A stretch of DNA of 64,000 bases, from NCBI RefSeq assembly GCF_003399645.1, contig NZ_NBXD01000007.1, positions 186,001 through 250,000 of the forward strand, read 5' to 3'. Each line of letters opens with the position of its first letter. Position 1 is the stretch's first letter. Position numbers and translations under genes: made by a program. Source of the stretch: Subtercola boreus (lineage in GTDB: Bacteria > Actinomycetota > Actinomycetes > Actinomycetales > Microbacteriaceae). The notes under the pieces were generated by a model that had not been told where the DNA came from, searched no databases, and saw only the letters and a list, made by a program, of their open reading frames with translations. Positions 2 through 28,303 of this stretch are shown piece after piece.

Positions 2-1576
2 TACCAGCCCGGCCGGTTCAACAACATCCTCTACAACCCGAACGCCTCCTGCGGTTCGAGCCCCGTCTTCATCCAGAACCAGGCCACGGCCAACCTGTAC
101 ATCTACACGCCGTACCAGCCCAATGCCGCTGCCCTGGCGAATCTCGGTGGGCAGGGCGACGGATGTTCGGCCTACGGCAACCGCAATTTCTGGGTCTACT
201 ACAACACCTGGTTCGGCGATCCGCTCGCGGGAGGGCTGCGCAACGCCTCGTTCGAGGGCGGCGACGCCTACTGGGGCGAAGGCAACGGGTTCGTGAACCA
301 CGTGGCCTACCGCGACCCGGGTGTGGCCAAGAGCGGTTCGTGGTACTTCGCCACGAACACCCCGGTCGCCGGCCGCTCGATCTCGCAGGATGTTGCCCAG
401 ACGACGAAGGTCGGCGACCAGCTCTCCGCCTCGGTCTGGGTGCGCTCCGAGAGCGGCAGACCCTTCGTCGGCAGTCTCGCCGTGTGGGGGCTCGGCGGCA
501 TCACCGAGCAGGCCGCCACCCCGTTCACCGCGAACGGCACGTGGCAGCAGATCAGTGTGACGCTTCCGCTGCGGGCATCCGCACACGACAGCGTGCGGTT
601 GGAGCTCTACGAGCTCTCGACCGACGGCACCCTCTTCGTCGACGCGGCGAGCCTCCGGTTCGGCCAGGCACCGCCCCTGCAGAACCAGCTCGTCGTGCCC
701 TCGTTCGAAGGCGCCCTCGGCCCCTGGGGTCCGGGCAACGGGTTCGTCAACCGCACGGTCTACAACAACGCGCAGAACGCGCACTCCGGCAGCTGGTACG
801 CAGCGATGAACACGGATGTCGCGGGGCGCTCCCTCGCCCAGGTGATCGATGTGACACCGGCGGCGGGCGACGAGTACTCCCTCTCGATCTGGCTCCGAAC
901 GGAAGACCCCGATCCCTCGCGCAAGATGTCGGGTCGCCTCGTGCTGTGGGGCCTCGGCGGCGCCACGCCGGTGCAGAACGGCACGAATTTCACGGTCGGC
1001 GCAACCTGGACGAAGGTGACGGTGACCACCGATATGACCCAGAGCGGCATCACCCAGCTCAAACCCGAGATCTACATGACGTCGACCAGCAATACGCTGT
1101 GGGCCGACGACGGATCGCTTGGTAAGAACATCCTGCAGTCCGGGTCGTTCGAGGGCGGCACCTTCGCCGGCTGGGGTGCGGGCAACGGCACCATCAACCA
1201 GGCCGTGTACGACTCACGCACGGCCGGGGTGCAGGCGCACGACGGTAACTTCTTCGCCGCCACGAACACGAAGGTCGCGGGCAATTCCCTCGCCCAGACC
1301 CTCGTCGTGACGACCGTGGTGGGCGACGTCTACAGCGCGAGCGTGTGGGTGCGATCTTCCGACCCGTCAGCCAAGTTCACGGGCGTTCTCGCGCTCTGGG
1401 CGCTCGGCGGCCAGACCGAGAGTTCCCAAAAGGCCTTCACGGTGGGCAGCACCTGGACGAAGGTCGGAGTCGATCTGCCAATCACTCGCGCGGGTCATTC
1501 CTCGGTGAAGTTCGAACTCTACGAGCAGACAACCGAACCCGTTACGCTGTATGTCGATGAGGCCCAGGTCTTCTAG
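2..1576 (+). CDS. Secreted hemagglutinin-like protein with three carbohydrate-binding-like repeats (5' partial)
   Basis: The reading frame is open from the first base, so the N-terminus lies outside the window. The first ~75 residues contain the motif ATANLYIYTPYQPNAA and then CSAYGNRNFW. This is a cysteine-bearing segment typical of actinobacterial secreted proteins annotated as hemagglutinins or cell-wall hydrolase-associated proteins. Three tandem copies of a ~145-residue beta-sandwich-like domain follow (about 236-675, 677-1122 and 1124-1573). Each starts with a variant of SFEGG-x-W-G-x-GNG and contains VAGRSL/ISQ plus a late LYVD/LFVD motif, resembling CBM4/9-type modules. It is probably exported and binds glycan. 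Its place at the head of a glycan locus fits, but no catalytic domain is visible in this fragment. The stop is followed 26 nt later by the next gene. Confidence 0.8.
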   Translation, partial: YQPGRFNNILYNPNASCGSSPVFIQNQATANLYIYTPYQPNAAALANLGGQGDGCSAYGNRNFWVYYNTWFGDPLAGGLRNASFEGGDAYWGEGNGFVNHVAYRDPGVAKSGSWYFATNTPVAGRSISQDVAQTTKVGDQLSASVWVRSESGRPFVGSLAVWGLGGITEQAATPFTANGTWQQISVTLPLRASAHDSVRLELYELSTDGTLFVDAASLRFGQAPPLQNQLVVPSFEGALGPWGPGNGFVNRTVYNNAQNAHSGSWYAAMNTDVAGRSLAQVIDVTPAAGDEYSLSIWLRTEDPDPSRKMSGRLVLWGLGGATPVQNGTNFTVGATWTKVTVTTDMTQSGITQLKPEIYMTSTSNTLWADDGSLGKNILQSGSFEGGTFAGWGAGNGTINQAVYDSRTAGVQAHDGNFFAATNTKVAGNSLAQTLVVTTVVGDVYSASVWVRSSDPSAKFTGVLALWALGGQTESSQKAFTVGSTWTKVGVDLPITRAGHSSVKFELYEQTTEPVTLYVDEAQVF

Positions 1577-1602: not shown

Positions 1603-2370
1603 ATGCTGAACATCGTCATTCCCATGGCCGGAGCGGGAAGCAGGTTCGCTGCGGCGGGCTTCGTCGATCCCAAGCCGCTGATCCGCGTGCGCGGGGTCGA
1701 GATGATCCGCGTCGTCATAGACAACCTGGCCCCGTCGTCCGAGCACAGGTTCATCTTCATCTGCCAGCGCGAGCACGTCGCCGCCTATGATCTCGAGGCC
1801 AAGCTCACCGCCTGGGCCCCCGGCTCGGTCGTGCTGAGCGTCGACGGTCTGACCGCGGGTGCCGCAGCCACCGTGCTCGTCGCCCGTGAGCTCATCGACA
1901 CCGACGACCAGCTGATGATCGCGAACAGCGACCAGTACGTGACGGTCGACATCGACGCCTACCTGGCGAAGATCGACGAGGAACACCTCGACGGGCTCAT
2001 CATGACGATGACGGCGGATGATCCCAAGTGGTCGTTCGTCGGGCTGGGCGAGGGCGGGCAGGTCACCAGCGTGGTCGAGAAGGTAGTCATCTCCGACGAG
2101 GCCACCGTGGGCATCTACAACTTCGCCCGCGGGTCGGACTTCGTACGCGCCGCGCAAGCGATGATCGAGCGCGACGAGCGGTCGAAGGGCGAGTTCTACG
2201 TCGCCCCCGCGTACAACGACCTGATTGCCGAGGGCGCCCGCATCGGTATCGACAACATCGGCTCCGAGGCCGATGGTATGTACGGACTCGGCATCCCCGC
2301 CGACCTCGAGCTGTTCGAGAGCCTGCCCGTGAGCGACGCGATCCTGCTGAAGACGCATGCGGGTTCTTAG
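1603..2370 (+). CDS. Nucleotidyltransferase, NDP-sugar pyrophosphorylase-like (capsule/LPS type)
   Basis: A 255-residue Rossmann-like nucleotidyltransferase. The N-terminal nucleotide-binding loop is VIPMAGAGSRF followed by DPKPLI at residues ~22-27. The metal-binding acid region is N-S-D at residues 108-110. Proteins of this type in capsule clusters activate a phosphorylated sugar or polyol with an NTP in the cytoplasm. The substrate cannot be read from sequence. The ATG start directly opens the conserved MAGAGSRF motif. Its 3' end overlaps the next gene by 14 bp, so the five genes 1603-4672 are probably one transcript. Confidence 0.85.
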   Translation: MLNIVIPMAGAGSRFAAAGFVDPKPLIRVRGVEMIRVVIDNLAPSSEHRFIFICQREHVAAYDLEAKLTAWAPGSVVLSVDGLTAGAAATVLVARELIDTDDQLMIANSDQYVTVDIDAYLAKIDEEHLDGLIMTMTADDPKWSFVGLGEGGQVTSVVEKVVISDEATVGIYNFARGSDFVRAAQAMIERDERSKGEFYVAPAYNDLIAEGARIGIDNIGSEADGMYGLGIPADLELFESLPVSDAILLKTHAGS

Positions 2371-2977
2371 TCACCGCGGTCACTGGCTCGAACAGGGGGA
2401 GAAGAACACCCTCGCCGCGTTCGAGCGATCCTTCGCCGGCGGTTTCGGCACCGAGACCGACCTCCGCGATGTGCTGGGCTCGATCGTCATCTCGCACGAC
2501 ATGCCCTCGGGTGCAGAGATGACCGCGGCGGAGTTCCTCGCTCTCGAGGGTGCTGCCGCGCTGCCGCTCGCCCTGAACATCAAGGCCGACGGGCAGGCCG
2601 TGGCCGTTCGCGACCTGATCGAGAAGGCCGGCGCCTCCCAGGCCTTCGTGTTCGACATGGCTGTGCCCGACACCCTGGCCTACTTCGCGGCGGGCGTACC
2701 GGTGTACACCCGCATGTCGGAGGTCGAGCAGCAGCCGGCCTGGCTCTCCCGTTCGGCGGGCGTCTGGCTCGACGCCTTCGAGGGCACCTGGTACGACCGT
2801 GACCTGGTCGAGAAGCTGCTCGACTCCGTCTCGGTGTGCGTCGTGTCGCCAGAACTGCACGGGCGCCCGCACCCCGAGACGTGGGAGCTGCTGGCGCCCC
2901 TGGCCGGGCATCCGCAGCTCTCGATCTGCACCGACCTGCCGCTTCATGCGGCGACCTTTTTTGGAGTGAACCCGTGA
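2357..2977 (+). CDS. Glycerophosphodiester phosphodiesterase-like protein of a polysaccharide locus
   Basis: A 206-residue TIM-barrel-like protein. SHRGHW (residues ~5-10), KNTLAAFE, FGTETD and ISHD match the HRG, N-T-x-A-F, E-x-D and H-D catalytic/metal signatures of the GDPD family. It is shorter than typical GDPDs (~240-300), and the usual E-x-K after the first strands reads LNIKADG, so the acid is replaced. Family members act on glycerophosphodiesters; here, between nucleotidyltransferases and a phosphatase, it may process a phosphodiester-linked glycan substituent (inference). It overlaps the gene before by 14 bp and the HAD gene after by the 4-base GTGA. Confidence 0.75.
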   Translation: MRVLSHRGHWLEQGEKNTLAAFERSFAGGFGTETDLRDVLGSIVISHDMPSGAEMTAAEFLALEGAAALPLALNIKADGQAVAVRDLIEKAGASQAFVFDMAVPDTLAYFAAGVPVYTRMSEVEQQPAWLSRSAGVWLDAFEGTWYDRDLVEKLLDSVSVCVVSPELHGRPHPETWELLAPLAGHPQLSICTDLPLHAATFFGVNP

Positions 2978-3627
2978 GTGAGATCAAGGCCGTCGTCTTC
3001 GACATGGACGGCGTACTCGTCGACGCCAAGGAGTGGCACTACGAGGCGCTGAACCTCGCCCTCGGGCTGTTCGGCTACACCATCCAGCGCACCGAGCACG
3101 TCGAGACCTTCGACGGCCTGCCCACCAAGCGCAAGCTCGAGATCCTCACCGCAGAGCGCGGGCTGCCCGCGGGCCTTCACCGTTTCATCAACGAGATGAA
3201 GCAGTCGTACACGATGGAGATGATCCACACCCGGTGTCGGCCGACCTTCGCCCACCAGTTCGCTCTGGCGCACCTCAAGCGCGAGGGCATGCTGATCGGC
3301 GTCGCATCGAACTCGATCCGCGAGAGCGTCGAGCTGATGATGCAGAAGACTGCCCTGTCGCAGTACCTCGACGTGCTGCTCGGAGCCACCGATGTGAAGC
3401 TGCCGAAGCCCGACCCCGACATCTACCTCGAGGCGGTAAGCCGGCTCGGCCTCACGTCGGCGGAGGTGCTCGTCGTCGAAGACAACCAGAACGGTATCGC
3501 TGCTGCGAAGGCTGCGGGATGCCACGTGCTCGAGGTCGAGGACACCCACGAGGTGAACCTCGAGAACATCCACAAGCGCATTGCAGAGATCGAAGCCGGG
3601 ATCGAGACCGAGGGAGTGCACGCATGA
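2974..3627 (+). CDS. HAD-superfamily hydrolase, probable sugar/polyol phosphatase
   Basis: A 217-residue HAD hydrolase with all core motifs: VFDMDGVLVD (motif I, residues ~7-16, two catalytic Asp), VASNS (motif II, ~110-114), a lysine in KLPKPDPD (motif III) and VVEDNQNG (motif IV, ~168). An insert between motifs I and II matches the cap of beta-phosphoglucomutase-like members. It probably dephosphorylates a small sugar or polyol phosphate. The start is GTG at 2974, overlapping the previous TGA. Longer upstream in-frame starts would run deep into the previous gene and lack similarity. The stop overlaps the next ATG (ATGA). Confidence 0.85.
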   Translation: MSEIKAVVFDMDGVLVDAKEWHYEALNLALGLFGYTIQRTEHVETFDGLPTKRKLEILTAERGLPAGLHRFINEMKQSYTMEMIHTRCRPTFAHQFALAHLKREGMLIGVASNSIRESVELMMQKTALSQYLDVLLGATDVKLPKPDPDIYLEAVSRLGLTSAEVLVVEDNQNGIAAAKAAGCHVLEVEDTHEVNLENIHKRIAEIEAGIETEGVHA

Positions 3628-4355
3628 AGGTCCTGATCCTCGCCGCCGGGCGGCGCGACCCGAACGTCACCGACTCCTACCCTGTCTGGCTCGCCGAGTT
3701 CGGCAGGCAGCCCCTGATCGAGAGCCTGCTCGAGCGCATGAAGTCGCTCGGCAACCCCTCCCTGCACGTCGCTCTGCGCTCGAGCGAACTGAGCAAGTTC
3801 CACCTCGACAACATCATCAGGCTGATCGACAACGAGGCCAAGATCATCCGGGTCGAGAACGACACGTTCGGCGCGACCTGCACCGCGCTGCTGGCGATCG
3901 ACCACATCGACGGCGACGAAGAGCTGCTCATCGTGAACGGCGACGAGCTGGTCGACGTTCCGCTCGGTCCGGTGCTCGACGGGTTCCGCGCCGCGGGCTA
4001 CGCGGCGGGTACGCTCACCTTTCCGTCGGTGCATCCGCGGTATTCCTACGTGCGTCTCGACAGCGACGGAATGGTCATCGAGGCCGCCGAGAAGCGTCCG
4101 ATCAGCCGCCACGCGACCGCGGGCGTCTACTGGTTCGAGCACGGCAGCGACTTCGTGGCCGCGGCGAAGAACCAGATCCGCAATCGCGATGCGGTCGAGG
4201 GCCTGTACTACATCTGCCCCTCGCTGAACGATCTGATCCTGCGCGGACTGCCGGTCGGGTCGTTCGCGTTCGCAGCGCGCGACTACCACCCGCTGAAGAC
4301 CGAACGCCAGGTCGACAGCTACAGCAACTCACTCGAGAGGCCGGCAGGCGAATGA
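3624..4355 (+). CDS. Second nucleotidyltransferase, atypical signature loop
   Basis: A 243-residue protein beginning MKVLILAAGRRDPN, the nucleotide-binding strand-loop of sugar-nucleotidyltransferases. The usual G-x-G-T-R-x-x-P-x-T stretch is replaced by RRDPNVTDSYPVW. VNGDEL (residues ~104-109) supplies the metal-binding Asp. The fold is clear; substrate and nucleotide are unknown. It is not closely related to the 1603 enzyme, so the module holds two different activating enzymes. The ATG overlaps the HAD gene stop, and its own TGA overlaps the cupin start. Confidence 0.8.
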   Translation: MKVLILAAGRRDPNVTDSYPVWLAEFGRQPLIESLLERMKSLGNPSLHVALRSSELSKFHLDNIIRLIDNEAKIIRVENDTFGATCTALLAIDHIDGDEELLIVNGDELVDVPLGPVLDGFRAAGYAAGTLTFPSVHPRYSYVRLDSDGMVIEAAEKRPISRHATAGVYWFEHGSDFVAAAKNQIRNRDAVEGLYYICPSLNDLILRGLPVGSFAFAARDYHPLKTERQVDSYSNSLERPAGE

Positions 4356-4672
4356 AGCACTCACGTTTGGAAGACATGACCGGCGGATGGTTCGTCGGCG
4401 GGTTCACGCCCACCGCGCTGTCGACCCAGAACGCCGAGGTCGCGGTGAAGTCGTACACGGCCGGAACCTACGAGGCCAAGCACCTGCACAGGGTGGCGAC
4501 CGAGGTGACCCTCGTGCTGTCGGGGCGGGTGCGGATGGCCGGGGCGGAGTTCGGCGCGGGCGACATCATCGTGCTGGAGCCCGGGGAGGCGACCGACTTC
4601 GAAGCGCTGACGGATGCGGTGAACGTCGTGGTGAAGACGCCGGGGGCGCTCGGGGACAAGTACCTGGTCTGA
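4352..4672 (+). CDS. Small single-domain cupin
   Basis: A 106-residue double-stranded beta-helix protein. Cupin motif 1 is seen as KHLHRVATE with H44 and H46, and motif 2 surrounds FGAGDIIVLEPGEATDF. One of the usual motif 2 histidines is not obvious, so metal binding may be incomplete. Stand-alone cupins in glycan clusters can be sugar epimerases/isomerases or binding proteins; which applies cannot be decided here. It is the last gene of the coupled plus-strand module, with an ATGA overlap upstream and a convergent neighbour 57 bp downstream. Confidence 0.75.
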   Translation: MKHSRLEDMTGGWFVGGFTPTALSTQNAEVAVKSYTAGTYEAKHLHRVATEVTLVLSGRVRMAGAEFGAGDIIVLEPGEATDFEALTDAVNVVVKTPGALGDKYLV

Positions 4673-4729: not shown

Positions 4730-5911
4730 TCAGCGCGGGTCGAAGCCGCGGTTGGCGGCGAGGAACGTGCGGGTCAGGTCAGCGAGGGACTCGCCGCGCG
4801 TGACACGGGACTCGCCGGCGATGAACGCGGCCAGCACCCGGGCGATGTCGCCGGGGTCGCGTGGGTCGACGTACAGGGCGGGGTTCAGGTTGACCTCGCC
4901 GAGCGATGACCCGCTCGACGAGATGCACGGAGTGCCGAACGACTGGGCCTCGAGGATGGGGAGCCCGAGCCCTTCGTAGAGAGACGGGAAGAGCAGAACG
5001 TCAGAGCTCTGATAGAGCGCAGTGAGCAGATCATCGGGAGCGTTCTCGTGCCACGTCACCGTGGCTCCGCCCGACGCGAGCTGCTTCAGGAACTGCTTCG
5101 GTGAGAGCTCGGGGGGCAACCGGTTGCTGCCGACGATGTCGATCACGAGCGGCATGCGCGCACTGACCTCGGCCAGCGCCTTCGACACTTGGGCAATGTT
5201 CTTGCGCGGGTCGAGCACGTTGACGAGCAGCACACGGGTGACGTCGGTTCGGTCATCCGGAGCCGCGGGCGGTGCGCCGGCATCCGGAGACGTCTCGCCC
5301 TGCTCAGCCAGGTACCGATCGACGTCGAACGGGATGTCGACCACCACACTCGCCACGTCGTCGGGGGTGTAGTAGCGCAGAAAGTCGGAGCGCGTGCTCT
5401 GGCTGATGCAGAGAATGGTCTCGACGCTGTCGAGAAAGAACTGGAACCCGCGGTGGTGCGAGTGGGCGAACCCGGCGGCTACCCAGTTCGGTGTTCCGAA
5501 GTCGAGGGCCTGCGCGGCGAGGAGGTTCGGCACGAGGTCGTAGACCACCCCGTGCGTGAAGCGCAGGTGCGGCATCAGCTGGTCGCAGAGCCACGGGTTG
5601 GTCAGCATCGACACGTCGTACCCCGCGGTGTCGATGCGCAGCTCGAGCGCCTCCGCCAAGTCGAGCACGCCGGTGCGGGCCGTCTTCTCGCCGTGCCGCG
5701 TCGTGATCGCGGCGAGGGTCTCGTCGGCGGCCGGGCCGGAGACCCGGTGCAGGTGCCCGGCCGAGACGACGCCGAGGTCGACCGTGTAGCCGCGGGTGAG
5801 AAGTCTCTGCCAGTAGTCCGCGATCACCCGCCGCACGCCTACGTGCTCCACGGCGAAGCGCGGCTCGACGACAAGCAGTGCGCGCCGCGGGTCGGTGCCC
5901 TGCTCAGCCAC
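4730..5911 (-). CDS. Glycosyltransferase, GT4/GT1-type (GT-B fold)
   Basis: A 393-residue retaining GT-B glycosyltransferase. The C-terminal half has the nucleotide-sugar-binding E-x7-E motif in LYEGLGLPILEAQSFGTP (first Glu near residue 312), preceded by a VNVLDPRKN lysine motif. It acts at the cytoplasmic membrane face, adding a sugar to a lipid-linked acceptor. The GTG start at 5911 was chosen because it shares 8 bases with the upstream stop and places the conserved start of the domain (RRALLVVEPRF) near the N-terminus; a longer reading lies inside the upstream gene. It is the terminal gene of the minus-strand operon. Confidence 0.85.
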   Translation of the reverse strand: MAEQGTDPRRALLVVEPRFAVEHVGVRRVIADYWQRLLTRGYTVDLGVVSAGHLHRVSGPAADETLAAITTRHGEKTARTGVLDLAEALELRIDTAGYDVSMLTNPWLCDQLMPHLRFTHGVVYDLVPNLLAAQALDFGTPNWVAAGFAHSHHRGFQFFLDSVETILCISQSTRSDFLRYYTPDDVASVVVDIPFDVDRYLAEQGETSPDAGAPPAAPDDRTDVTRVLLVNVLDPRKNIAQVSKALAEVSARMPLVIDIVGSNRLPPELSPKQFLKQLASGGATVTWHENAPDDLLTALYQSSDVLLFPSLYEGLGLPILEAQSFGTPCISSSGSSLGEVNLNPALYVDPRDPGDIARVLAAFIAGESRVTRGESLADLTRTFLAANRGFDPR

Positions 5912-7913
5912 GGGCCTCCTTGATCGAGAGCGTACGGATGCCGACACCCAGGCGCCGGACATCTCCTTCTCCGGTCTCCTCGTGGGGGGAGGTCGGGAAG
6001 GCGACCTCGAAGGTGAGGTCGACCCAGTCGCGGGTGAGCCTCGCCGCCGGAATGCGCACCGAGTGCCACCGGAATTCGCCCGAGGTCATGCTCCAGATGT
6101 CGAGCGGGATGCCGGCGATCTTCACGATGACGCGCTGCTCGCCGGTGCGGAGCGGGATGTACGCCTGCAGATCGCACGAGACGACCAGGGTCGCGCCCGG
6201 ACGCCTGGCCCGGATGGGGATGTGGATGGAGCAGGAGCGGCCCGACGACCATCGTCCCCAGTTCTCCGGCTCGCCCCAGCCCGAGAAGGTCGCGTCGGTA
6301 CGTGACACCTCGGCGCCCAGATCGAGGGTGAGCGGCAGCTCGGGGGTCGGTGTGTCGACATCGAGCCGCAGCGACCGCAGGGCGACGCCGTGCGGCATCC
6401 CGCTCGCCAGCTGCACGGCGAAGTTGCGCCCGTCGATGCCGATGTCTTCGGGAACGTCGAAGGTGAGCTCGGCAAGCGAAGCGCCGCTGCTCGAGTCGAC
6501 GGCTGCCAGAGGGGCGCGGCGACCGTTCACGAGCACCTCGGCCCACCCCGAACCGGCGCCGCCGGGGCCGGCGCTGAACCCCAGCGTCAGCGTCCATCGG
6601 CGATTGCCGCGACTCTCGGGCACCTCCGGGCGGATGACGAACTCGGGGGCGTGGTCGGCCGACCAGACCAGGCCCGCACCGCTTCGCGACCAGTAGTGCG
6701 GAAACGCGACGCCGCGCCGGGCGAAGACGGCGGGGTCGGTCGACTGCCCGAACGCCAACCCCGAGCCCGGCGCGTACCGCGGCCCGCGCTCGGTCGGCGA
6801 GACGTACGACGACTCGAACGGCAGGCGCTGGAAGACCGAGACCTGGTCGCCCCGGGTCAGGTCGGTGATCACCACGACGTTCTGGGAGAACCGTGGCACG
6901 ACGCCGGCGGCCTCGAGTCGCCGCGTGAGCTCGACGTCTTCGGCCTCGGCCCAGAACAGCAGTTCGTTGTAGGGCGTGGCGCGTAGAACGTCGACGCTGG
7001 CGATCAGCACGCCGCCGTTGATGTACATGGTCGGGGTGTAGTCGCCCACCTCGAGTTCGCCGAGGCTCCGCAGGTCCCAGGTTCCGGATGTCGCGACCCT
7101 CGACGGATACGTGAAACCGTCGCTCGTCAGCTGGGTCGGTACGAGCACGTCGACGTCGGGCCCGTACTCGCGGAGCGCGGTGAGGAAGTCGGAGCGCACC
7201 GAGTACCGGTCGTGCGCGAGCAGGATGAGATCGCCCCGGGCTTCGGCCACGAGCAGGTTCTTCTTGCGGGTGATCCACCCCAGGGTGCTGAATCTGGCAT
7301 CCTGTTCGACGAGTCGGATGTTGGCGAGCCGGGTGTCGATGTGGTCGGTGCTGCCGGCGGGGCCGCAGACCAGGATCTCGTAGTCGATCGTGTCGAGCCC
7401 GTCGATGGCCAGCACGCTGTCGACGAACCGGGTCAGGCGCTCGGGAAAGCGGCCGTCGACGATGAGCCCGAACGTGAAGAGGTCGAGCGAGCGCCGCCTG
7501 GCCGGTGCCGACAGCGTCAGCCCGATCACCTTCGACGGATGCCCGGGCCACTGCCGGGCGAAGAGCACCTCGACCGCACCGCCCGTGAACGCCCGGATCG
7601 CGTTCATCAGTTCGTGGGTGCCGAAGTAAGGGAACGGGGTGTACCTGAGCACGAGGGTGCCGCTGCCGTTCAGCAGATGCAGCAGCTCGTCGAGCACCTG
7701 CCGCCACTGCTTCACGTCGCCGAGGTCGTGCTCGACGTAGAAGACGCCGTCGAAGGTGCCGTGCAGGTCGGAGTCGACGCGGAAGTCACGGTTCAGGTCG
7801 ACGACGTCGCGTGAGGTGACGAATCCGGGAAGGGGAGCGGTCTCGCCGACCCAGTAGTTGAGGTGGGCGGTGTCGATGAACGAGAGCTCGTCGGGGCTGA
7901 GGAAGTCGGTCAC
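5904..7913 (-). CDS. Large glycosyltransferase: methyltransferase-like N-terminus, GT2 core, beta-rich C-terminus
   Basis: A 669-residue protein. Residues ~1-140 look like part of a class I methyltransferase (FDGVFYVEHDL followed by LLHLLNGSGTLVLR), though no clear SAM-binding glycine loop is seen. Residues ~145-385 are a GT2-like GT-A domain with LLAHDRY in place of the usual DxD and AEAEDVELTRRL as the EDxD-like acceptor motif. Residues ~400-669 are predicted beta-rich, perhaps carbohydrate-binding. The GTG start overlaps the stop of the coiled-coil gene upstream (GTGA). Probable role: glycan assembly or modification; donor unknown. Confidence 0.7.
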   Translation of the reverse strand: MTDFLSPDELSFIDTAHLNYWVGETAPLPGFVTSRDVVDLNRDFRVDSDLHGTFDGVFYVEHDLGDVKQWRQVLDELLHLLNGSGTLVLRYTPFPYFGTHELMNAIRAFTGGAVEVLFARQWPGHPSKVIGLTLSAPARRRSLDLFTFGLIVDGRFPERLTRFVDSVLAIDGLDTIDYEILVCGPAGSTDHIDTRLANIRLVEQDARFSTLGWITRKKNLLVAEARGDLILLAHDRYSVRSDFLTALREYGPDVDVLVPTQLTSDGFTYPSRVATSGTWDLRSLGELEVGDYTPTMYINGGVLIASVDVLRATPYNELLFWAEAEDVELTRRLEAAGVVPRFSQNVVVITDLTRGDQVSVFQRLPFESSYVSPTERGPRYAPGSGLAFGQSTDPAVFARRGVAFPHYWSRSGAGLVWSADHAPEFVIRPEVPESRGNRRWTLTLGFSAGPGGAGSGWAEVLVNGRRAPLAAVDSSSGASLAELTFDVPEDIGIDGRNFAVQLASGMPHGVALRSLRLDVDTPTPELPLTLDLGAEVSRTDATFSGWGEPENWGRWSSGRSCSIHIPIRARRPGATLVVSCDLQAYIPLRTGEQRVIVKIAGIPLDIWSMTSGEFRWHSVRIPAARLTRDWVDLTFEVAFPTSPHEETGEGDVRRLGVGIRTLSIKEARG

Positions 7914-17543: not shown

Positions 17544-18530
<987 letters not shown>

Positions 18531-20656: not shown

Positions 20657-22480
20657 GTGCGCCCGCGCCGACGACGGAAGCCCTGGTCGACCCGTCGTCG
20701 CGTCGTCGCCATCGTCATCATCGTCGTCATCAGCCTGCTGGTGGCTCTGGCCTGCATCATCGGCTGGGTCGCCTACCAGGCCGTACAGGCGAAGGACTCC
20801 CTGGAGAAGGCCCAGGGCTCGGTCAGCGACATCCAGGCCAATCTGACCTCCCTCGATGTGCGCGCGCTCACGGCCTCGGCGAACGCCTTCGCGGCGAATG
20901 TCAGCGATGCGCGCAGCCATACGAACGACCCGCTCTACAAGCTCGCCGAGAACGTGCCCTCGGTGGGGCCGAACCTCACCGCGGTGAGGCAGCTCACCGA
21001 CTCGCTCGACGACCTCAGCACCCAGGCCCTGCTGCCGGTGGTCGACTTCTCGAAGACGCTGACTCCGGATGCTCTCAAGCCCGTCGACGGAAAGCTGAAC
21101 GTCGAGCTGCTGCGCACCGGCGACGCCACCCTGCAGGCCGCTGACACCGCCATCGTCGTCACGACCGGCAGCCTGCAGACGATCGACACGGCCGACACGA
21201 TCGGCCAGGTCGGATCGGCGAAGACCACGATGGTGAACGCGCTTGCCAAGGCGCACGACCAGATCGTGAAGGTGCGCGGCACGGTCGCCACCGTCGAAGG
21301 CATCGTGGGCATGAACGGCCCGAGGCACTACCTGCTGGCGTTCCTCAACAACGCCGAGACCACAGCGCTGGGCGGTGGGCCGGCCTCGATCTCGATGCTC
21401 ACCGTCGACAACGGCTCGTTCGCCATCACCGACCAGGCCTCGAGCCAGGACTTCCCGATCACCGACGGACCGGTCAGGGACATCGACCAGAACATCAAGA
21501 ACATCTTCGCCCCGGGTGTGGTGTCGACGCTGAACTGGTCGACCAGCCGCCCCGACTTTCCCACGGCCGCACTCACGATCAAGGCCTTCTGGAACACGTA
21601 CAAGACCCCCGACACGATCGACGGCGTCATCTCGGTCGATCCGCTCGCGCTCGCCGACGTGCTCGGGGCGACCGGTCCGATCACCATCCCGGGAACAGAC
21701 GGGATGCCCGACGATCAGATCTCGGCCGACAACGCCGTGGCGCTGCTGCTGCACGACGTCTACCTGCGCTACCCGAACAGCCAGATCGGCGATGAGACCG
21801 ACCTCTTCTTCGCCAGCGCCGCGAAGAGCATCTTCACCGGACTGGTCACCACCAACACCGACCCGACGAAGCTCTTGGCCGCGGTCGAGAAGAGCATCAA
21901 CACCGGCAATCTGATGGCCTGGAGTGCCAACGCCGACGAGGAGGCGCTGCTCAAGGGAACGAAGCTCGAGGGAGTGCTGCCGACCGACAACGCGAAGCAG
22001 ACGCTGGTGGGCGCCTATTTCAGGGACGTCACCGTCTCGAAGACCGACTTCTACCTCGAGACGAAGGTGAATCTCTCGACCGACGTCTGCACGAACCCGA
22101 ACAACCCGACCTTCACCGAGACCATCATCCTGCACTCGACGATCACCCAGGAAGAGGCCCAGAACCTGCCCCTCTACGTGGTCGGCCAGAACTTCAAGGG
22201 CCGAAAGTTCAGCACTGAGGTCTACGGTTACGGGCCGGTCGGCGCGAGCATCACGTCGACCACGGTGGGGGATTCGAGCGTGGGAGGTTCGAGCCGTTCC
22301 TCTGCAGAAGATCTCGGTCGCCCCGTCGGCCGGGCCATTGTCGATCTGGCGCCCGGCGAGACGAACACCGTCACCTTCACATACAGCGGAGCGGCCGGCA
22401 GCTACGGCACGCCGGTGCTGCAGACCACGCCCATGATCAACCAGACGGCGGTCGCCGTCGATGCCGCCGGGTGCAAGTGA
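20657..22480 (+). CDS. DUF4012 membrane-anchored extracytoplasmic protein
   Basis: A 607-residue protein: basic N-terminus (RPRRRRKPW), one TM segment at residues ~15-38, then a large extracytoplasmic region. LLAFLNNAETTALGG and the W-N-T-x-K-T-P-x-T-I-D-G-V segment match the DUF4012 family, found in polysaccharide loci of actinobacteria and other Gram-positives; its biochemical role is unknown. The start is uncertain: GTG 20657 lacks a Shine-Dalgarno site, whereas AGGAG at 20618-20622 sits 7 nt before an in-frame ATC at 20630. It precedes a GtrA flippase, which supports a role in glycan assembly outside the membrane. Confidence 0.85.
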   Translation: MRPRRRRKPWSTRRRVVAIVIIVVISLLVALACIIGWVAYQAVQAKDSLEKAQGSVSDIQANLTSLDVRALTASANAFAANVSDARSHTNDPLYKLAENVPSVGPNLTAVRQLTDSLDDLSTQALLPVVDFSKTLTPDALKPVDGKLNVELLRTGDATLQAADTAIVVTTGSLQTIDTADTIGQVGSAKTTMVNALAKAHDQIVKVRGTVATVEGIVGMNGPRHYLLAFLNNAETTALGGGPASISMLTVDNGSFAITDQASSQDFPITDGPVRDIDQNIKNIFAPGVVSTLNWSTSRPDFPTAALTIKAFWNTYKTPDTIDGVISVDPLALADVLGATGPITIPGTDGMPDDQISADNAVALLLHDVYLRYPNSQIGDETDLFFASAAKSIFTGLVTTNTDPTKLLAAVEKSINTGNLMAWSANADEEALLKGTKLEGVLPTDNAKQTLVGAYFRDVTVSKTDFYLETKVNLSTDVCTNPNNPTFTETIILHSTITQEEAQNLPLYVVGQNFKGRKFSTEVYGYGPVGASITSTTVGDSSVGGSSRSSAEDLGRPVGRAIVDLAPGETNTVTFTYSGAAGSYGTPVLQTTPMINQTAVAVDAAGCK

Positions 22481-26559: not shown

Positions 26560-26609
26560 TTAGCGTTGGACGCGCCCTGGCGTCCTGTGGTTTGGTATCG
26601 AGGAGATGT

Positions 26610-27554
26610 ATGGCGACTCAAGCCGAGGTGAGGGCTGCGCGTCTGGCCGAGCTTCCCTTTGAAGCGTCGGCGAGTGCTGGCCCCAGGTCTGTCGGCGGGT
26701 TCGTCACCTCCGTCAGGGAGATCTTCTCCCACCGGGAACTGCTCGACCTGCTCATCAGGCGGGAGCTGAAGTCACGCTACAAAGACTCGGCCCTGGGATT
26801 CCTGTGGAGCCTGATCAAGCCGCTCGTGCAGCTGATCATCTACTACGTGTTCATCGGCCAGGTGCTGGGCGCCGCACGGAACGTCGCCGACTTCGCCATC
26901 TTCGTCTTCGCCGGCCTCACGCTCTGGGGTCTCTACAGCGAGACCATCTCGACGGGAACCGCCTCGATCGTGTCGAACGGCGGGCTGATCAAGAAGGTCT
27001 ACCTGCCGCGGGAGATCTTCCCGCTCGCGGCCACCGGCTCGGCGATCTTCAACTTCCTCGTGCAGATGCTGGTGCTGATCGCCGCCATCCTGGTGCTCGG
27101 CCAGTTCCCGGTCTCGCTGAACCTGCTGTACGTGCCCGCCTCGATCGCGGTCGTGCTCATCTGGGGCGTGGCATTCGCCGTGCTGCTCTCGGCGCTCAAC
27201 GTGTACCTCCGCGACATCCAGTACCTCGTCGAGGTCGTCATGCTGCTGCTGTTCTGGGCCTCGCCGATCGTCTACTCGTGGAGCTTCGTCGTGACCGCGG
27301 TGAAACAGCACACCTGGCTGCTTGACGTGTACCTGCTCAACCCGATCTCCCTCGCCATGCTCGCCTTCCAGCGGGGCCTCTGGCAGGCGGGCAACCAGAC
27401 CCGGGTCATCGACGGCAAGACGATCCCCCCGCAGGACTGGCCCGCCTCCATGGAGCTGCGGCTCGTGGTGGCCGCCGTCGTCGGGCTCGTCGTTATGTTC
27501 ATCGCCCAGCGCATCTTCGCGCGCCTGCAGGGCAACTTCGCCCAGGAGATCTGA
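26610..27554 (+). CDS. ABC-2 type polysaccharide exporter permease (Wzm/TagG-like)
   Basis: A 314-residue ABC-2 permease with about six TM helices. LIRRELKSRYKDSALGFLWSL near residues 48-68 is the amphipathic coupling segment typical of Wzm/TagG. It moves a lipid-linked glycan across the membrane with the ATPase encoded 1 base downstream. The ATG at 26610 is preceded by AGGAG; an upstream in-frame start at 26592 would add six residues only. The C-terminal hydrophilic loop (KTIPPQDWPASME) before the last TM is slightly longer than usual. Confidence 0.93.
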   Translation: MATQAEVRAARLAELPFEASASAGPRSVGGFVTSVREIFSHRELLDLLIRRELKSRYKDSALGFLWSLIKPLVQLIIYYVFIGQVLGAARNVADFAIFVFAGLTLWGLYSETISTGTASIVSNGGLIKKVYLPREIFPLAATGSAIFNFLVQMLVLIAAILVLGQFPVSLNLLYVPASIAVVLIWGVAFAVLLSALNVYLRDIQYLVEVVMLLLFWASPIVYSWSFVVTAVKQHTWLLDVYLLNPISLAMLAFQRGLWQAGNQTRVIDGKTIPPQDWPASMELRLVVAAVVGLVVMFIAQRIFARLQGNFAQEI

Positions 27555-28303
27555 TGCCGGCCCTTCACAACGCACCCACGGTGGTGCGAGCGACGAACGT
27601 GTCGAAGCGCTTCGTCATCCGCAAGGAGAAGTCGCTCAAGGAGCGCATCGTCAACTTCGGGCGCTCGCAGAAGCACAAAGACGACTTCTGGGCGCTTCGC
27701 GATGTGTCGTTCGACATCACCGCCGGCACCACGATCGGCCTGGTCGGGGCGAACGGGTCAGGCAAGAGCACCCTGCTGAAGGTGCTCGGCGGCATCATTC
27801 AGCCCAATGACGGAAAGGTCGAGCGGCGCGGCCGGCTCGCGGCCCTGCTCGAGCTCGGCGCGGGCTTCCACCCCGACCTCACGGGGCGCGAGAACGTGTA
27901 CCTGAACTCCTCGATCCTCGGGCTCAGCCGCAAGCAGACCGACGAGTACTTCCAGTCGATCGTCGACTTCAGCGAGATCGAGGAGTTCATCGACACGCAG
28001 GTGAAGTTCTACTCCTCGGGCATGTACGTGCGGCTCGCGTTCGCGATCGCGGTGCACGTCGACCCCGACATCCTCCTGGTCGACGAGGTTCTCGCCGTGG
28101 GCGACGAGCCGTTCCAGGAGAAGTGCATGGCGAAGATCCGGGAATTCCAGCAGGAGGGGCGAACGATCATCCTCGTCAGCCACTCGGCGAGCCAGGTCGA
28201 AGATCTGTGCGACCGGGTCGTGGTGCTCTCCCACGGGCATGTGGTGTTCGACGGGGCCGCTGCAGAGGGCATCCTCGCGCTCCGCGAGTCGTTCGAACAC
28301 TGA
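27554..28303 (+). CDS. ABC exporter ATPase (Wzt/TagH-like, short form)
   Basis: A 249-residue ATPase with Walker A GANGSGKST (~57-65), Q-loop region ELGAGFHPDLTGREN, signature YSSGMYVRLAFA, Walker B ILLVDEVLAVGD and switch His in VSHSA. It energises export of the glycan with the Wzm-like permease; the ATG overlaps the permease stop (TGATG). It lacks the C-terminal carbohydrate-recognition domain of O-antigen-specific Wzt proteins, so recognition of a terminal cap is unlikely. The stop is 16 bp from the convergent ligase-like gene. Confidence 0.95.
   Translation: MPALHNAPTVVRATNVSKRFVIRKEKSLKERIVNFGRSQKHKDDFWALRDVSFDITAGTTIGLVGANGSGKSTLLKVLGGIIQPNDGKVERRGRLAALLELGAGFHPDLTGRENVYLNSSILGLSRKQTDEYFQSIVDFSEIEEFIDTQVKFYSSGMYVRLAFAIAVHVDPDILLVDEVLAVGDEPFQEKCMAKIREFQQEGRTIILVSHSASQVEDLCDRVVVLSHGHVVFDGAAAEGILALRESFEH

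Follow-up and report, generated by a model that had tools for sequence, protein, structure and literature searches.

Five overlapping genes and their linkage in other genomes

The 64,000 nt window analyzed here, from contig NZ_NBXD01000007.1 of Subtercola boreus (Microbacteriaceae), contains five consecutive genes that encode a nucleotidyltransferase (NT1), a GDPD-like protein, a HAD-family phosphatase or mutase, a paralogue of NT1 (NT2) and a small cupin (Table 1). Neighboring genes overlap by 14, 4, 4 and 4 bp, in that order and on the forward strand, confirming the overlaps reported in the original prediction, a reading of this DNA made from its sequence alone. The five genes are a real conserved module, as seen from their linkage in other genomes.

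A scan of the genome collection, using the GDPD-like gene as an anchor, yielded 341 relatives, and the 80 best matches served as the loci analyzed here. The HAD gene accompanies the anchor at 78 of these loci, NT1 at 76, NT2 at 75 and the cupin at 74. Approximately 69 of the 80 loci have all five genes on one strand and within 2.3 to 4.3 kb; the scripted count was 70, from which L062 was removed since its single nucleotidyltransferase domain had been credited as both NT1 and NT2. The cupin was not detected at three loci (L077, L081 and L105), NT1 is missing from L086, both NT1 and the cupin are missing from L099, and some of the exceptional loci sit at contig ends. Across 94 loci, comprising the 80 genomic loci, 13 plasmid regions and the window, the gene order is NT1-GDPD-HAD-NT2-cupin in 50, GDPD-HAD-NT2-cupin-NT1 in 17 and GDPD-HAD-NT2-NT1-cupin in seven. 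The plasmid regions come from a tblastn search with the GDPD-like protein that returned 24 records; in all 13 regions examined, the next module gene after the GDPD-like gene is the HAD gene, and WavE is annotated in six. Loci L108 to L120 and L137 to L138 duplicate places already counted.

Further, 149 Pseudomonas genomes were searched separately with four anchors, namely the HAD (E 1e-40), the GDPD-like protein (E 1e-20), NT1 (E 1e-20) and the cupin (E 1e-15). Each anchor matches the same four genomes (G968, G1035, G1052 and G1073) at five shared loci, where the sample includes its centre, G968, which had been picked because it bears the module. The WavE model (PF07507) matches the same four genomes and lies 0.3 to 4.4 kb from the module at all five loci, while the other 145 genomes have no match to HAD, GDPD-like, NT1, cupin or WavE at the thresholds used. 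The original prediction held that the genes form one translational unit and proposed a neighborhood search that could have found them scattered and unlinked in relatives; the outcome was the opposite, with linkage at about 69 of the 80 loci and co-inheritance in Pseudomonas. In addition, gene fusions directly connect four of the five genes: HAD with cupin (L080 and L094), HAD with NT1 (L062), and NT2 with NT1 (L081 and six alphaproteobacterial plasmid loci).

The unit of five families is also present in Pseudomonadota, Bacteroidota, Melainabacteria and other groups. Closer to S. boreus, the GDPD-like gene was found at E 1e-6 in its own genome only, which is one of 396 genomes sampled from the order and one of 396 from the phylum; within the family, four of 199 genomes match at E 1e-3, and the three others are weak matches to residues 2 to 83 only (the family, order and phylum samples overlap). 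In a tree of NT1 sequences, the window's copy lies amid mostly proteobacterial rows with no supported sister; by identity, the nearest copy is that of Paraburkholderia (L034), at 67%. The natural reading of these sequence comparisons is that the cassette was horizontally acquired. An assembly artefact or contaminant was rejected as an explanation; the module lies inside a 417-kb contig, and the third-position GC content (GC3) of NT1, the GDPD-like gene and the HAD gene is like that of their neighbors. The module had no match in phages, and GDPD-HAD DNA from Scandinavium had none in E. coli genomes, the latter by blastn only and therefore weak evidence of absence.

Some copies carry additional parts. 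The nucleotidyltransferase domains of L061 (11249-12334) and L094 (5461-6549) have an extra C-terminal domain that is NTF2-like by eye, the 368-aa NT2 of L141 may also bear an added C-terminal domain, and L025 has a separate gene annotated as NTF2 downstream of a rhizobial-type module. In six plasmid copies (L015, L018, L019, L021, L023 and L025), a protein that we call HYPa follows the fused NT2-NT1 protein and the cupin was not detected; HYPa is nucleotidyltransferase-like at its start, and the HYPa of L021 has no Pfam match. Some of these plasmid or rhizobial copies adjoin erythritol-type or mtnA-type genes.

Table 1. Module genes and related features of the window.
Feature	Position	Strand	Basis
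NT1, catalytic nucleotidyltransferase, 255 aa	1603..2370	+	PF00483, 41.2 bits
GDPD-like phosphodiesterase, 206 aa	2357..2977	+	GDPD fold and core residues
HAD-IA phosphatase or mutase, beta-phosphoglucomutase-like, 217 aa, GTG start	2974..3627	+	PF13419
NT2, NT1 paralogue, probably accessory in this lineage, 243 aa	3624..4355	+	PF00483, 23.8 bits (obtained with a reference carrying one extra leading codon)
Small cupin, 106 aa	4352..4672	+	weak PF07883, under cut-off
Glycosyltransferase family 4 (GT4) protein, possible partner	4730..5962	-	PF00534; best matches beside module: L060 35%, L026 38%
669-aa P592-group protein, putative transferase, proposed donor user here	5904..7913	-	matches to module neighbors
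GDP-mannose 4,6-dehydratase, same surface-glycan locus	17544..18530	-	PF16363; 50% to module neighbors L026 and L031
ABC-2 permease (26592-27554) and ABC ATPase (27554-28303)	26592..28303	+	PF01061, PF00005

Conserved residues and probable roles of the proteins

NT1 has the features of an active nucleotidyltransferase. Its PF00483 score is well above the cut-off of 21.2 bits, the signature Lys (GxGxR...PK) is conserved in 87 of 89 aligned rows with gaps in the other two, and the metal-binding Asp is present in all 89. The AlphaFold model has a predicted local distance difference test score (pLDDT) of 94.7, and the nearest solved structure is 4evw, which is also the best Protein Data Bank (PDB) match of the NT1 profile (E 3.4e-31). 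NT1 and NT2 are paralogues by profile comparison (E 1.2e-71), and yet the signature Lys of NT1 is replaced in the window's NT2 by Val21, although NT2 still scores above the PF00483 cut-off. Across an NT2 alignment of 79 rows, the Lys is present in 30 and the Asp in 36; these counts omit the fused proteins, which the script labeled NT1, and an alignment intended for the fused NT2-NT1 protein was not used as its conserved columns fell on one half only. At loci where NT1 comes first, which is the window's type, NT2 has lost the signature Lys/Arg in 47 of 50 cases, the window included, and both the signature Lys and the metal Asp in 38 of 50. The original prediction listed two different nucleotidyltransferases, and a reading of these as two activities is not borne out by the losses. 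Instead, they suggest that in this lineage NT2 is probably an accessory to NT1, so that the pair would provide catalytic and accessory subunits and not two activations.

The paralogy, the NT2-NT1 fusions and the residue losses in NT2 are indirect pointers to a possible NT1-NT2 heteromer. Most simply, these sequences can be read as encoding a pyrophosphorylase of two subunits, the second of which has decayed in one lineage. GDP-mannose pyrophosphorylase has such an arrangement, where the catalytic nucleotidyltransferase GMPPB is accompanied by the paralogous GMPPA, and GMPPA/GMPPB chains (7d72) are among the fold and profile matches of NT1. However, GMPPs bear an extra C-terminal domain, whereas NT1 and NT2 are single-domain proteins of 243 to 255 aa. 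The plasmid records mostly label NT1 and NT2 as glycosyltransferase family 2 (GT2) proteins, which masks their nucleotidyltransferase nature; the GT2 assignment is ruled out by the PF00483 match, the signature motifs and the nearest fold, 4evw.

The GDPD-like protein has the TIM-barrel GDPD fold and the core residues of that family (HR...E-x-D...HD), with His6, Arg7, Glu33, Asp35 and His47 present in 94 of 94 rows. Asn74, Lys76, Asp78 and Gly79 are likewise invariant in all 94 rows. In marginal second-domain profile alignments to 2pz0 and 1o1z, Asn74 aligns with the Glu of the IEIK motif, which is a metal ligand in GDPDs, and the segment from His47 to Asn74 falls short of its counterpart in 2pz0 by about 30 residues. 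Because of this Asn substitution and the shorter preceding segment, the substrate is probably not a standard glycerophosphodiester. At E 0.1, the protein has no match among the Pfam and NCBIfam models. It differs from the GDPD family in its shorter insertion, in its Asn in place of the IEIK Glu, and in lying outside curated models.

The closest kin of the HAD protein are beta-phosphoglucomutase (beta-PGM) and sugar phosphatases, and its nearest solved structures are 3e58, 3kbb, 1te2 and 3nas (beta-PGM). Its subfamily occurs as a single copy in each of 12 module genomes at 54 to 60% identity to the window's HAD, whereas the other HADs in these genomes have identities of 26 to 33% (one has 46% over 83 residues). 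It shares the HAD-IA motifs with beta-PGM and hexose-phosphate phosphatases, but has a different invariant set of its own (Trp21-His22, Asp47 to Thr51, Lys54, Lys76-Gln77 and Cys88, in 90 of 90 rows). Within this set, His22 and Lys76 are located at the positions of the EYH and RK residues, which are functional in beta-PGM. Its scores are below the curated cut-offs for beta-PGM (90.6 vs. 189.4 bits) and PGMB-YQAB (119 vs. 153.35 bits), and no equivalog cut-off was passed among the matches listed, which cover 25 of 46 NCBIfam families. An EcbF/BcbF identity (TIGR01689) was also rejected; its cut-off is 162 bits, and the best NCBIfam score of the HAD among the matches listed is 119. In the cupin, His44, His46 and Glu51 are conserved in 79 of 79 rows.

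Surface-glycan context and a parallel set in Vibrio

Neighboring genes were counted at 75 of the 80 loci, those whose GDPD-like reading frame was kept by the gene caller (L033, L036, L050, L055 and L070 were dropped), using single-linkage BLAST clusters with one representative each tested in Pfam and located anywhere within loci of up to 20 kb. A gene of the WavE cluster is present at 52 of these loci, a gene of a second cluster, the P592 group, at 28, either one at 56, and ABC exporter genes at 38. The P592 representative matches no Pfam family, and a transferase role for this group is therefore only inferred; homology between WavE and the P592 group was rejected, with an hhalign probability of 0.3%. 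At L082 and L085, the GDPD-like gene alone adjoins WavE-like genes, a hint of a direct GDPD-WavE link.

The window's own P592-group member, the 669-aa protein, is most likely the linked transferase in this genome. Its best matches adjoin the module in Ca. Aquabacterium (L060, 36% over 523 aa) and Paraburkholderia (L026, 30% over 683 aa), with weaker matches of 24 to 30% to other module neighbors, many of them in Pseudomonas. The locus also holds glycosyltransferases, the GDP-mannose dehydratase, a phosphomannose isomerase, a Wzy_C protein and the ABC exporter pair, whose ATPase is 48 to 51% identical to ATPases beside the module in L030, L053, L037 and L046. A DUF4012 protein (20657-22480) lies within this polysaccharide locus, which holds both the Wzy_C protein and the exporter pair. 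Upstream, a long open frame that begins before the window (-1282..1576; 952 aa from its first start) stops 27 bp before NT1; its part inside the window contains CBM_4_9 domains, and no relative of it was seen among the other module loci.

An NT1-like gene was detected at E 1e-9 in 16 of 118 Vibrio genomes; two are module-type (58 to 64% identity) and 14 are distant. WavE-like sequence is found within the 1.5-kb flanks at 10 of the 14 loci L123 to L136. For example, the nucleotidyltransferase of L124 is near-identical to the protein of PDB 4evw (E 5.2e-168), and is followed, with a 4 bp overlap, by WavE (PF07507, E 9.4e-125). The same place, examined as L140 (4925-8560; Vibrio G1188), is a lipopolysaccharide (LPS) core locus with four overlapping genes: a 126-aa EcbF/BcbF phosphatase that passes TIGR01689 (228.7 bits vs. 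the cut-off of 162), a kinase-like protein (weak APH), the nucleotidyltransferase and WavE, with heptosyltransferase-like and WaaA-like genes around them as read from translations. L142 has the same gene order, its phosphatase assigned by eye. Neither L140 nor L142 yielded a GDPD-like gene, a HAD gene of the module type or a cupin gene. In L141 (5935-12373; Vibrio G1199), a phosphatase/kinase-like/nucleotidyltransferase set stands divergent beside a complete five-gene module, and the 19.5 kb examined revealed no WavE.

Among the closest known systems to the module is a BcbE/EcbE-type nucleotidyltransferase with an EcbF/BcbF phosphatase, which occurs in capsule and LPS-core loci and of which this Vibrio set is an example. 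The set shares with the module a related nucleotidyltransferase (4evw), a phosphatase of the HAD superfamily, WavE and an arrangement of small genes that overlap. It differs in having a HAD-III phosphatase and the weak-APH kinase-like protein, whereas the module lacks a TIGR01689 phosphatase. The combination of a phosphatase, a nucleotidyltransferase and WavE is thus seen again, here with a different means of producing the phosphorylated substrate. Over its N-terminal half, the kinase-like protein aligns end-to-end with NT2 without significance (E 0.058, probability 0.9%), so a second pseudo-nucleotidyltransferase in the Vibrio set is a hint only.

A possible donor route and its alternatives

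The interpretation we favor, to which we assign a slightly better than even chance, is that the module is a self-contained cassette, spread by horizontal transfer, and that its product is a single nucleotide-activated residue destined for a surface polysaccharide, which a linked enzyme then transfers. In the order of steps that we infer, the beta-phosphoglucomutase-like HAD would make or trim a phosphorylated substrate, the cupin would probably isomerise this substrate or its precursor, and NT1 would be the catalytic pyrophosphorylase that couples the phosphorylated sugar or polyol to a nucleoside triphosphate. NT2 in this lineage would bind NT1 as an accessory or regulatory subunit, like GMPPA with GMPPB, and the GDPD-like protein may be a metal-dependent phosphodiesterase whose target is either an intermediate or phosphodiesters off the main path. 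Transfer of the activated residue would fall to WavE in most relatives and, most likely, to the 669-aa protein here. The original prediction had proposed that the genes serve a dedicated pathway for a glycan building block, and this part is supported by the strict co-inheritance, the surface-polysaccharide context and the linked WavE genes.

Several observations weigh against this interpretation. At loci where NT1 comes last, NT2 retains the Lys/Arg in 27 of 27 cases and the metal Asp in 23 of 27, and may therefore be active there; the window's own NT2 keeps Asp107; and many of the NT1-first rows are related Pseudomonas, so the 47 losses are not 47 independent events. A separate NT2 is missing from L062, L070, L080 and L094, and NT2 is therefore not always required, while at two of the 80 loci (L082 and L085) the GDPD-like gene is found without the other four. 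In the S. boreus genome itself, WavE (PF07507) has no matches, where 14 controls were also silent and the same model works in Pseudomonas. Moreover, the link to the 669-aa protein rests on identities of 24 to 36%, and Pfam gives it only a sub-cut-off DUF7024 and no transferase family.

The intact NT2 signatures suggest an alternative in which both nucleotidyltransferases are active, on two substrates or in successive steps, yielding two donors or a doubly activated intermediate. Besides the NT1-last loci and Asp107, the NT2 halves of the fused alphaproteobacterial proteins carry FPKPLIE-type signatures. However, the signature residues are lost at most NT1-first loci, and at least three of the 80 loci (L062, L080 and L094) retain the remaining four functions though they possess no second nucleotidyltransferase domain, leaving this alternative unlikely. 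It is about as improbable that the module serves scavenging, where the GDPD-like protein would cleave a cytosolic phosphodiester, such as a glycerophosphodiester, to a phosphorylated alcohol that NT1 activates for phospho-alcohol decoration of a glycan, with the HAD and cupin as accessories. The GDPD fold and its five invariant core residues are consistent with this role, and the two loci where the GDPD-like gene stands beside WavE without its four partners indicate that it does more than assist the HAD; in contrast, Asn74 and the shortened segment before it argue for a different substrate, and the strictly conserved HAD and cupin are unaccounted for. Finally, the absence of the GDPD-like gene at E 1e-6 from all other sampled genomes of the order and phylum could suggest a chance cluster of unrelated polysaccharide genes, or a contaminant, without a common pathway. 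This is very improbable, as it is contradicted by the linkage at the 80 loci, the recurrence of the unit across phyla and its all-or-none presence in the 149 Pseudomonas genomes, and a contaminant by the 417-kb contig and neighbor-like GC3.

Beyond the favored donor cassette, a broader and tentative extension, which we consider doubtful, is that the cassette and the Vibrio set are dedicated donor routes for the WavE family, making an undescribed activated residue via a two-subunit pyrophosphorylase with a pseudoenzyme second subunit in one large lineage. The LPS core of Vibrio cholerae contains fructose, and we know of no explanation for its activated form. An activated ketose is accordingly a concrete candidate for the residue.

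No paper describing the five-gene set was found in the open-licence literature, where searches with the term WavE are blurred by the word wave, in agreement with the original prediction, which did not recognise the set as a named pathway. That prediction is supported in its linked unit, its dedicated glycan route and its unnamed set, but two nucleotidyltransferases as two activities are not supported. The set would be a variant of the nucleotidyltransferase-phosphatase donor routes of capsule and LPS synthesis, adding a GDPD-like protein and a decayed nucleotidyltransferase partner, which to our knowledge are not known from any named pathway. In the 13 plasmid regions, the module genes are mostly named glycosyltransferase family 2, hypothetical protein, HAD family phosphatase and cupin, and such generic names would hide a whole donor pathway. 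The all-or-none inheritance of the module with WavE in Pseudomonas offers a testable donor source for the poorly described WavE family, and the Vibrio parallel connects the cassette to LPS-core synthesis. NT2 provides a natural series from an intact to a decayed nucleotidyltransferase partner, and the GDPD-like protein would extend the GDPD superfamily into glycan-precursor metabolism.

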